From NCBI RefSeq assembly GCF_030055635.1, contig NZ_JASFYM010000009.1, positions 1 through 64,000 of the forward strand: DNA of 64,000 nt, in the 5' to 3' direction. Positions 19,149-32,768 of the stretch are shown piece by piece (position 1 is the stretch's first letter; every line of letters begins with the position of its first letter). The notes under the pieces are model-generated. The model saw only the letters and a list, made by a program, of their open reading frames with translations, was not told where the DNA came from and did no database searches. This DNA is from Methanothrix sp. Its GTDB lineage: Archaea; Halobacteriota; Methanosarcinia; Methanotrichales; Methanotrichaceae. A program made the translations under genes and the position numbers.

Positions 19149-19200
19149 CAGTGCTCGATCTCACTTCATCGCTATAGCTTTTGAGGATTCTGTGAGAAAT

Positions 19201-19330
19201 GCATCTTGGGTCGTGTACTTGTATCATTGAAATCCGCAGCGTTCACTTCAGCCAGACTCATGGGATGTCTCACCCATAGCACTCGATTTCAGCGGATCAT
19301 TCAGCTATTCGAGTACACGACCGCATCTTG
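19201..19330 (+). mobile_element. 114-bp GGTCGTGTAC-ended miniature element, copy 1, with 8-bp target duplication
   Basis: The element is 19209-19322 with ~30-bp imperfect inverted ends beginning GGTCGTGTACT. Perfect direct repeats GCATCTTG flank it (19201-19208, 19323-19330). It has no coding capacity. A second copy of the same length is at 32566-32679. Confidence 0.88.
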
Positions 19331-19494
19331 CCGCTCTGAGCAAACCCCCCCGGGTGCAGAGTTCAATCAGGTGAAACGTGCTCTGTGCATGAGATCCAGC
19401 GACTCAACAGACCTGATTGCTGACGCACACACAATCTCGAAAGTTATATTAAGATAGAGGATCATTTTATCAAGTAATTCATGAGGTGATTTGC

Positions 19495-19713
19495 TTGAAC
19501 GGGGATGTATATAAATTCATAGAGCTCGTCGGCACATCGACGGTTGGGTGGGAGGATGCGGTGAAGACTGTCGTGGAGACAGCCTCAAAGACTTTGAGGG
19601 ATCTGAGGGTGGCTGAGGTCACCGAGCTTGATGTGAGGCTGGACAAGGGCAAGATCGTCGAGTACAGGGCAAAGGTGAAGCTGTCGTTCAAGTACGAGAA
19701 GGAGGAGGACTGA
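19495..19713 (+). CDS. Dodecin-family flavin-binding protein
   Basis: The product is a 72-residue dodecin: VYKFIELVGTSTVGWEDAVKTVVETASKTLRDLRVAEV... ending in a beta strand (YRAKVKLSFKYE). Dodecins form hollow dodecamers that store flavins. I choose the TTG at 19495 because GAGGTGA lies about 5 bases before it; a GTG at 19486 is possible. A TATA-like TTATATTAAG lies about 40 bases upstream. Length and core motif (ELVGTS..SWEDAV) fit the family well. Confidence 0.9.
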   Translation: MNGDVYKFIELVGTSTVGWEDAVKTVVETASKTLRDLRVAEVTELDVRLDKGKIVEYRAKVKLSFKYEKEED

Positions 19714-19794
19714 GAGTTCAGCTCGTGGGCTTGCACCACTTAATGCTCCAGCTGCGATCGATGGCCTCAGGTAGATTCCGTAAATCTGGATGTT

Positions 19795-19878
19795 TTGAGG
19801 ATGCGGGTTAACATGAAAGCACGACATAGGCTGAAATCCTGTGTCGGCTTGCTTGGATGAAACCAACCCGCATCTCAA
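19795..19878 (+). repeat. GCGGGTT-ended repeat with internal hairpin, copy 1
   Basis: Outer arms TTGAGGATGCGGGTT and AACCCGCATCTCAA enclose an inner hairpin CGACA...TGTCG (19822-19846). The reverse complement matches 47918-47993, including GAAAGCACGACA and GAAACCAACCCGCATCTCAA. The inner stem differs between copies but stays paired. It could be a structured RNA or a small mobile element. Confidence 0.7.
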
Positions 19879-19949
19879 CGCCTTCATTCTTTTGACTCAC
19901 CTTCTCATGCGTGGTTTTCATACAGGTACACGACTCAGGCAACGATACA

Positions 19950-19957
19950 TTTATAAA
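19950..19957 (+). promoter_or_regulatory. TATA box upstream of the candidate RNA
   Basis: TTTATAAA in an A+T-rich patch predicts a start near 19978-19982, where GGTCCC begins. No protein frame follows at that distance. Confidence 0.5.
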
Positions 19958-19977
19958 CGAAAAATCCAACATAGAAT

Positions 19978-20280
19978 GGTCCCTTTAACGAGGGCTGGCA
20001 TGAGCATGGCATGATGTCGCTTTGAGTGCCGGTGCGATAGAGGGACGACACGCCGCATTGATAGGTCCTTGTGGGAGATCACTGACAGGGTCTGACGATG
20101 ACCTCAAGACAACCCACATGCGGTACATGTGCCCGTTGCGAGGGTTGCCGGTCAGACAGAGGTTACCGCAGGATGATGCACCGGAGTTAGCATCGGGCGA
20201 CAGATTCCTGTTACATCCCTCCCGACGTCAGGTGATCCGGTCGCGCGAAGCATGGCGATTTTCTGGATGATATAATCCAC
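19978..20280 (+). ncRNA. Candidate structured non-coding RNA (no known family)
   Basis: About 300 gene-free bases follow a good TATA box. Nested exact complements suggest a folded RNA: GAGGG 19990-19994 with CCCTC 20217-20221; TGTCGC 20015-20020 with GCGACA 20197-20202; CCGGTGC 20029-20035 with GCACCGG 20178-20184; ACCTC with GAGGT; AACCC with GGGTT; and a CACATG/CATGTG hairpin near 20115-20131. I do not find the conserved cores of RNase P RNA (GAGGAAAGTCC) or SRP RNA (GGAAG...AGCAG). The 3' end is a guess. It could also be a long leader of the 20380 gene. Confidence 0.4.
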
Positions 20281-20379
20281 CGGATGACGCTGGCCTGCAG
20301 CCGTCCTGGCATGGATCGATCACGCGCAAATCTTATCTATATTGTGTTTCGACTAGAGCACATCCCATGGTGGTGTGGT

Positions 20380-20592
20380 TTGAACAAGCTCTCACCCCAC
20401 AAGCACTGCATAATATGCGGCAATGCCATTGAGGCCGACAGCATGTTCTGTGATGAGCTCTGCGAATCGAAATACCGATCGGCCCAGAGGCGCCAGCAGC
20501 TTGTTTTTGTGGTCTTTCTTCTTCTCATGATCGCAACATTCGTCCTGCTTGGCATCCTGCCGGCGCTCTTCGGGCAGAGCAGGCCCGGCTGA
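20380..20592 (+). CDS. Small zinc-ribbon membrane protein (DUF2116-like)
   Basis: The 70-residue product starts at a TTG with GGTGGTG about 5 bases upstream. Its N-terminus is a four-Cys ribbon (HCIICGNAIEADSMFCDELCESKY), followed by a basic stretch and one transmembrane helix (LVFVVFLLLMIATFVLLGILP). This matches small archaeal proteins with one zinc ribbon and one membrane helix. The stop overlaps the ribosome site of the next gene, so the two are translationally linked. The function is unknown. Confidence 0.8.
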   Translation: MNKLSPHKHCIICGNAIEADSMFCDELCESKYRSAQRRQQLVFVVFLLLMIATFVLLGILPALFGQSRPG

Positions 20593-31374: not shown

Positions 31375-32364
31375 ATGGACTGTCCATCATGTGGAGGACG
31401 ATGCGTAAGACCAGCGGCTCATGTTCTGAATTCCATCGATTATATTTACATGGCGTGTCGGGAATGCAAAAATGAGCCGCATATTGACAAGAAGGCCCCA
31501 CGGAGATCCCTCGAGATAGGAGGGCTGGAGAGGTGCGAGCACTGCGGGAAAGCACCGCTGGATCTGGTCATGCTCGAGGCGATGGATCTCCTCGTCGAGG
31601 AGGGGCTTCGCGACGATCGCGAGCCGCTCCGCAGCGTCGGCTCGCCGATGATAGAGATTGGCTATCCCCTGCCATATCCACCGCGCCTCGGCGATTCTCA
31701 GCTCATACTGCTGATGGAGAGGGTGAACAGAAGTGCTGCCTCCAGGCTCATCGAGATACCGGAGGTAAAGGGCGTGATAAGACGCAGCAGACAGATACCT
31801 GGCGTTGTTGATAAAAAAGGGCACACATGGGAGCTGCTCTCAGGCTGCGATATGCGCTGTGACATCATCCAGAGCATCTACGGGGATCTTGTGATATACA
31901 AAAACCAGTCGAAGATACACATAGAGTTTCCCAGGGAGAGCTACCCTAAGATACGGATTCTGGAGAATCTAAGGATCGCGGGAAGAAGCGTGATCGACGG
32001 TCTCTGCGGGCCTGGAACCCTCGGGCTTGTCTGTGTACTTGCCGGCGCGAAAAAGGTCGTGATGAACGACATATGGCTGCCGGCGATCGAGAACGTGCTC
32101 ATAAACCTGGAGGCCAACAGGGACATCCTGGGCATAGATAGCATAGAGCTCTTCGATCGTGGAGATGAGCAGGTTGGAGGCAGTCCCAGGCTGGTCGGGC
32201 GCGCAAGGGGCGCATGCGAGATAGAGGTATACCATGGGGATATACGAAAGCTCTTCTCAGCTGTGAGCCCCCAGGATATATGCATACTGGATCACTTTCC
32301 TGGCGCACCGCTGGACGAGATCAGGAGAGCATGCAGCTCCTGCGATGAAATTGTGGTAATATGA
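31375..32364 (+). CDS. Zinc-ribbon SAM-dependent methyltransferase-like protein
   Basis: The 329-residue protein starts at the ATG at 31375. N-terminal Cys pairs (CPSCGGRC, CREC, CEHCG; residues 3-65) suggest two zinc ribbons. A middle domain (~85-180) is unassigned. Residues ~195-329 carry a class I SAM-binding fold: VIDGLCGPGTLGLVCVLAGAKKVVMNDIWLPAIENV. The product may modify an RNA or protein; target unknown. It is divergent from the ATP-citrate lyase genes, and its stop lies 1 base from the convergent tRNA-Pro. Confidence 0.75.
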   Translation: MDCPSCGGRCVRPAAHVLNSIDYIYMACRECKNEPHIDKKAPRRSLEIGGLERCEHCGKAPLDLVMLEAMDLLVEEGLRDDREPLRSVGSPMIEIGYPLPYPPRLGDSQLILLMERVNRSAASRLIEIPEVKGVIRRSRQIPGVVDKKGHTWELLSGCDMRCDIIQSIYGDLVIYKNQSKIHIEFPRESYPKIRILENLRIAGRSVIDGLCGPGTLGLVCVLAGAKKVVMNDIWLPAIENVLINLEANRDILGIDSIELFDRGDEQVGGSPRLVGRARGACEIEVYHGDIRKLFSAVSPQDICILDHFPGAPLDEIRRACSSCDEIVVI

Positions 32365-32365
32365 T

Positions 32366-32439
32366 GGGACAGCGCGGATTCGAACCGCGGTCCAAGCGTC
32401 CCAAACGCTCGAGGATGGACCAGGCTACCCTACTGTCCC
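32366..32439 (-). tRNA. tRNA-Pro (TGG)
   Basis: The 74-nt cloverleaf on the minus strand has acceptor stem GGGACAG/CTGTCCC, anticodon stem GAGCG/CGCTT, loop TTTGGGA with anticodon TGG, and T arm CCGCG-GTTCGAAT-CCGCG. No intron is present. CCA is not encoded. Confidence 0.95.
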
Positions 32440-32768
32440 GCAGAAGGGCAACGCAGTATGAATCAAACCATGGATATATAGCTAATCCTGAAGTGACTGC
32501 AGGGCGATGAGCAGAGGCTCCTGAAGACCAGATGAGGGAGGCTGCCCGGATCTGAACGAATCGCGGGTCATGTACTCAAATCACTGAATGGAAACTCAGG
32601 AACCGGCATTCTCAGGCACAAGAGATCACAAACCTGCGGTGTCACATGCTCCTCGGTTCGATGATCTGAGTACACGACCGAATCGCGGAGGTGCCGGATC
32701 TCATGACGGAGACCGCCCCGATTCTCAGATAATGCAGGGGCGCGGTCACATTTGACGCATCTTAGATC
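32440..32768. other. Spacer holding a 114-bp miniature element
   Basis: Apart from the element at 32566-32679 and its flanking duplications I see no gene. GGATATATAGC near 32472 is the likely TATA box of tRNA-Pro, 30 bases upstream of its 5' end. Confidence 0.5.
32558..32687 (+). mobile_element. 114-bp GGTCRTGTAC-ended miniature element, copy 2, with 8-bp target duplication
   Basis: The element is 32566-32679 with ends GGTCATGTACTC and GAGTACACGACC. Perfect 8-bp direct repeats GAATCGCG (32558-32565, 32680-32687) flank it. It has the same length and ends as 19209-19322, but much of the interior has diverged. Confidence 0.88.

Follow-up and report, generated by a model that had tools for sequence, protein, structure and literature searches.

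The window, as we call the whole stretch of DNA that was analysed, comprises 64,000 nucleotides of a Methanothrix sp. contig (NZ_JASFYM010000009.1, assembly GCF_030055635.1). It carries on its forward strand a promoter-like element, a gene for a structured RNA of 224 nt with three H/ACA hairpins (19979-20202), and then a gene for a small membrane protein. In the following list the limits of hairpin I come from the alignment to the Rfam model RF00064, the pairing in relatives and the target search, and those of hairpins II and III from the relatives' pairing and the target search.

19940-19957, + strand: promoter, with the conserved BRE-like block CAACGATACA (19940-19949) and the TATA box TTTATAAA (19950-19957)
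19979-20050, + strand: H/ACA hairpin I
19979-19986/20039-20046, + strand: lower stem of hairpin I
19987-19993 and 20034-20038, + strand: guides of hairpin I, AACGAGG and GCGAU
19994-20001/20026-20033, + strand: upper stem of hairpin I, with kink-turn GA/UUU-GA
20048-20050, + strand: box ACA of hairpin I
20052-20127, + strand: H/ACA hairpin II
20052-20058/20118-20124, + strand: lower stem of hairpin II
20059-20067 and 20111-20115, + strand: guides of hairpin II, UGAUAGGUC and AACCC
20068-20074/20102-20108, + strand: upper stem of hairpin II, with kink-turn GA/GAU-GA
20125-20127, + strand: box ACA of hairpin II
20131-20202, + strand: H/ACA hairpin III
20131-20139/20190-20198, + strand: lower stem of hairpin III
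20140-20147 and 20186-20189, + strand: guides of hairpin III, GAGGGUUG and GUUA
between 20148 and 20184, + strand: upper stem of hairpin III, with kink-turn GA/GAU-GA
20200-20202, + strand: box ACA of hairpin III
20320-20592, + strand: the following gene, which lies outside the RNA gene and encodes a DUF2116 zinc-ribbon membrane protein (coding 20383-20592); it is preceded from about 20320 by a conserved block of its own

Across six congeners the conservation falls into three blocks, namely the promoter block (19940-19957), the RNA up to about 20207, and a third block from about 20320, and the spacers between them are unconserved. The block CAACGATACA before the TATA box is kept in all six members of the genus, with a variable spacer following the promoter, and in most of the family a TATA-like element lies at similar spacing about 30 nt before hairpin I. 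We consider it probable that the TATA box at 19950 drives transcription of the RNA, and infer that the RNA starts about 22-26 nt downstream of this box, at the first base of hairpin I; scans for sigma-70 promoters and bacterial terminators were disregarded since they do not apply to archaea. An earlier note on this DNA had proposed that a structured RNA of some 300 nt, under a promoter of its own, lies at 19950-20280, and this proposal is borne out by the TATA box at 19950-19957, the conserved block, the covariation and the family match described below, except that the RNA ends at about 20202 and so measures about 224 nt. It was also right that no convincing protein frame exists here, as only short mechanical ORFs overlap the RNA (82 aa at 20022-20270 and 57 aa at 19841-20014) and the conserved positions track the RNA stems and the guide pockets.

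The position of the RNA upstream of the DUF2116 gene on the same strand, together with the fact that the two stay paired within the genus, raises the question of whether it is a long 5' leader or riboswitch controlling that gene, as the same note had suggested. However, some 110 nt of unconserved spacer lie between them, extended by about 440 nt in one congener (G004), the DUF2116 gene has its own conserved upstream block which holds a TATA-like element just before the gene in the six congeners, and this gene and its neighbour were found adjoining the RNA only within the genus, whereas the RNA occurs phylum-wide and matches a known family of stand-alone genes. Because of the unconserved spacer, the separate upstream block and the genus-only linkage, the RNA is to be regarded as a gene of its own, and the leader explanation is given almost no credence. 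As for the DUF2116 gene itself, one extra T at 20379-20383 relative to five congeners puts its conserved ATGGTGGTG start out of frame, hence its start here would have to be the TTG at 20383, or else the extra T is an assembly error.

Several other features of the window were observed on the way. A strong hairpin (z -5.4) at 19793-19885 on the + strand belongs to a palindromic repeat of MITE- or REP-like character, of which about 12 copies (76-83% identical) are scattered over the genome and few occur in congeners. A second palindromic repeat family of about 115 nt is represented at 19196-19335, which has 26 matches in the genome; three congeners have about 9-13 each. ARAGORN called a tmRNA at 31749-32458 on the - strand, overlapping a tRNA-Pro(tgg) gene (32365-32439); tmRNA is not known from archaea, therefore this call is presumably a false positive.

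Regarding the identity of the RNA, a default Rfam scan at the gathering threshold is blank over the window, and thus also gives no match to RNase P RNA or SRP RNA, in agreement with the absence of these two noted earlier. When the cut-off was lifted for the region 19700-20400, the Rfam scan that the earlier note had called for gave one strong match and no other, to RF00064 (HgcG) on the + strand at 19923-20207, which covers the whole model (1-276) with 64.5 bits and an E-value of 4.8e-17. The score lies below the curated gathering score of 77, which is set high, and for this reason the gene stays unannotated in the default scan. In the same permissive scan a SECIS_2 candidate on the minus strand (18.7 bits against 70, E 0.88) was rejected as noise. 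HgcG is an H/ACA guide RNA that goes by the names Pab40 in P. abyssi and Pf7 in P. furiosus (PMC2241582, PMC4652768, PMC2584109); three guide hairpins are described for Pf7 (PMC4652768, PMC2584109).

The score under the curated gathering score does weaken the identification of the three-hairpin RNA with RF00064, so that the orthology is argued from the hairpins and pockets, as read from the sequence, and not from a Rfam listing. According to the alignment to RF00064, and to RNAalifold and pair counts on the relatives, the three H/ACA hairpins stand in the order of Pf7 with much the same guide pockets, and the hairpin I pocket letters GAGG / GCGA are the same as in the RF00064 consensus. Each hairpin is built of a lower stem (7-9 pairs), an open pocket that carries a 5' and a 3' guide, an upper stem with a kink-turn at its end, and an ACA box; in II and III the 3' guide is preceded by one or two bases that are unpaired. 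All three hairpins of the window sequence have 14 nt between the beginning of the 3' guide and the ACA, and productive archaeal guides have a spacing of 14-15 nt (PMC4652768). An ANA box is found in nearly all relatives. The kink-turn motif (tandem GA and a 3-nt bulge) occurs in all three upper stems, with the GA mostly invariant or nearly so in an alignment of 35 sequences, and by this motif the kink-turns appear to be of the L7Ae type and are putative L7Ae sites. Seven members (L013, L015, L016, L017, L019, L020 and L043) have an insertion of 4-5 nt, GTTAGCAG(A)GCATC, in hairpin III between the guide and the lower stem on the 3' side of the pocket, which lengthens the distance to the ACA.

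A score under the Rfam cut-off might also be expected of a new, unrelated structured RNA which resembles HgcG only by the common H/ACA architecture. Such a coincidence is extremely improbable, since the match to RF00064 is full-length, the three hairpins come in the same order with much the same pocket letters, and many relatives in the phylum match the same model. The RNA gene at 19979-20202 on the + strand is therefore, with high confidence, orthologous to HgcG (Pab40/Pf7), a box H/ACA guide RNA of archaea; it is a further member of a guide family already known, and the suggestion that it could be an undescribed RNA is not sustained. This reading is based on the family match, the anatomy, the covariation, the guide-target complementarity, and the presence of Cbf5 and Nop10.

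By blastn the RNA is found once each in 24 of the 25 Methanotrichaceae genomes searched. In a MAFFT alignment of 35 relatives, which is blind to structure, 95.4% of the cells are paired in the countable stems, and 18 pairs are compensated against 7.9 in shuffles (0 of 500 shuffles reach this number), whereas structures slid by 1-3 columns give only 32-42% pairing. RNAalifold, with the alignment as its sole input, independently gives the same three hairpins. The lower stem of hairpin I was left out of this count because its 5' pocket varies in length and MAFFT misplaces the stem, and it covaries too when the pairing is fitted. For hairpins II and III, 18 more distant sequences in an alignment fitted to the model show 23 of 28 pairs compensated and a covariation of 0.70 against 0.28. 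The folding energy is unexceptional (MFE of 331 nt, z -1.3 and +0.3 on the two strands, about 100 nt of which lie outside the RNA), and the case for the RNA rests on conservation, covariation and the family match, not on folding energy; on these grounds the structured RNA is a real, well conserved, stand-alone gene.

The covariation check also decides on the fold that had been proposed from exact complements. The complements do exist (CCGGTGC at 20029 with GCACCGG at 20178, and TGTCGC at 20015 with GCGACA at 20197), but the two long-range helices drawn from them are not supported, as they have 2 compensated pairs against 2.6 in shuffles at 76-86% pairing among the same 35 relatives, and it is the three local hairpins that covary. 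The halves of the complements belong to these hairpins: each 7-mer forms part of the 3' strand of an upper stem, and GCGACA takes in the end of a lower stem together with the ACA box.

By analogy with the solved H/ACA system, each hairpin would assemble with Cbf5, Nop10, Gar1 and L7Ae, its two pocket strands would flank a single uridine of the 23S rRNA by pairing on both sides of it, and this uridine would be presented to Cbf5 and converted to pseudouridine. The same genome encodes Cbf5 (457.6 bits) and Nop10 (78.9 bits), the two partner proteins that were searched for. The transcription, protein binding and modifying activity of the Methanothrix HgcG would likewise follow by analogy.

rRNA genes were not found in the assembly of the window, hence the 16S-23S region of a congener was used for the target search, and rRNAs of the family were compared as well. 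In E. coli numbers, the best uridine in the congener rRNA is U2496 for the hairpin I pocket (GCUUGC[U]ACCUCG), U2586 for the hairpin II pocket at the 14-nt spacing (CUGGGUU[U]AGACC), and U1915 in helix 69 for the hairpin III pocket (GUAAC[U]AUGACCCUC), so that all three pockets have bipartite complementarity to an rRNA uridine, and these would be the sites modified by hairpins I, II and III, respectively. The three predicted uridines all belong to helix 69 or to the peptidyl-transferase centre and its surroundings. Shuffled guides equal the observed best score in 6% (I), 0.3% (II) and 5.5% (III) of trials, thus no single pocket is decisive, and the strength lies in the agreement with sites known or proposed for the HgcG family. 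Pab40 guides U2588 of P. abyssi 23S rRNA in vitro (PMC6138745), Pab40.3 and Af4.3 guide the U1915 equivalent (PMC4652768, PMC2584109), and a Pf7-II homologue has been proposed for Hm 2621, i.e. E. coli 2586, in haloarchaea (PMC2584109). In P. abyssi, 40.2 is reported to modify L1932 (PMC4652768). This position is not favoured by the Methanothrix hairpin II. We take U2588 of P. abyssi to be U2496, on the basis of the common hairpin I pocket and of the offsets of other P. abyssi positions. Across 16 genomes the rRNA hardly varies at the target sites, which leaves no room for a covariation check of guides against targets.

The target of hairpin II is less certain than the other two, because of the L1932 report for Pab40.2 and of a second register which is equally good. 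When the pocket is shifted by one or two bases, it pairs with the A-loop region GGUUGUUCGCCUAUUAA by 5 + 9 or 6 + 9 pairs, with U2554 or U2555 as the uridine. The AUA before GGUC in this pocket is conserved in most relatives and is paired only in the A-loop register; RNAalifold offers an alternative in which GGU pairs with ACC inside the pocket. Covariation cannot choose between the two registers because the rRNA is invariant there in the 16 genomes. It is conceivable, although we consider it rather doubtful, that hairpin II is a double-duty guide for U2586 as well as for an A-loop pseudouridine at U2554 or U2555, which, if true, would explain the conservation of AUA in spite of its lack of pairing in the U2586 register. 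The eukaryotic A-loop pseudouridine, Psi2923 in yeast, is guided by snR10, and hairpin II would in that case be its functional counterpart.

The AUA left unused by pairing to U2586 could also be taken to speak for an H/ACA RNA whose main role is other than rRNA modification, for example as an rRNA folding chaperone or an mRNA regulator through the same pockets, and extra-ribosomal targets have been proposed for archaeal H/ACA guides (PMC4652768). We consider such a role very unlikely, since the bases of the pockets fit known rRNA sites of other archaea and the rRNA at these sites is nearly invariant in the 16 genomes.

In comparison with known systems, the Methanothrix RNA shares with HgcG/Pab40/Pf7 of Thermococcales the three hairpins in the same order, the kink-turns and ACA boxes, the hairpin I pocket GAGG / GCGA and the U1915 equivalent as target of hairpin III, and according to RNA-seq Pab40 starts with the first base of its first motif, which is consistent with the TATA distance in Methanothrix. 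It differs from them in its score below the RF00064 cut-off, and its hairpin II has a regular upper stem with a kink-turn and fits U2586 best, whereas a large internal loop is described for Pab40.2 and L1932 is reported as its target. Afu4 of Archaeoglobus fulgidus, by its description also a three-motif H/ACA RNA, appears to be the counterpart of HgcG; Af4.3 guides L1970, the U1915 equivalent, as predicted for the Methanothrix hairpin III, but the assigned targets of Af4.1 and Af4.2b are 16S position 1167 and 23S L2601, respectively (PMC4652768). In Haloferax, HP1 (Hvo1) corresponds to stem II and is proposed for Hm 2621 (E. coli 2586), and HP2 (Hvo2) corresponds to stem III and is directed to 1915/1917 (PMC2584109), which are the targets predicted for the Methanothrix hairpins II and III. 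The haloarchaea have no stem I and a long spacer between the two hairpins, while the three hairpins of Methanothrix stand close together.

A covariance model of hairpins II and III, seeded with the Methanothrix relatives and built from 23 sequences, gives hits in 229 of the 296 Halobacteriota genomes sampled (95 of 116 genera), with E-values that are rough owing to a short calibration. RF00064 itself gives matches in 25 of 150 genomes of the class, not one of them above its cut-off, and nothing in 14 control genomes, Methanosarcina and Haloferax included. A scan of named genomes for the DNA pattern of hairpin II gave Methanothrix/Methanosaeta, Methanocrinis and Candidatus Methanoperedens. Methanotrichaceae have hairpin I, as do loci of the families f2, f11, f17 and f21, and it was not seen in the inspected loci of f3 (presumably Methanosarcinaceae) and of f5 / Methanoperedens, where U2496 is still U. 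In the loci L107, L074, L119 and L085 (Methanoperedens) a short conserved palindrome, such as TCCAGAACTACGAATTCTGGA, lies just upstream of hairpin II and occupies the place of the Methanothrix hairpin I.

That hairpin I has apparently been lost in lineages which retain its target uridine is a small evolutionary puzzle. The wider interest of the finding is confined to the extension of the family and to the A-loop idea; for the organisms concerned, the survey predicts pseudouridines at the peptidyl-transferase centre and in helix 69 in methanogens and ANME-2d archaea.
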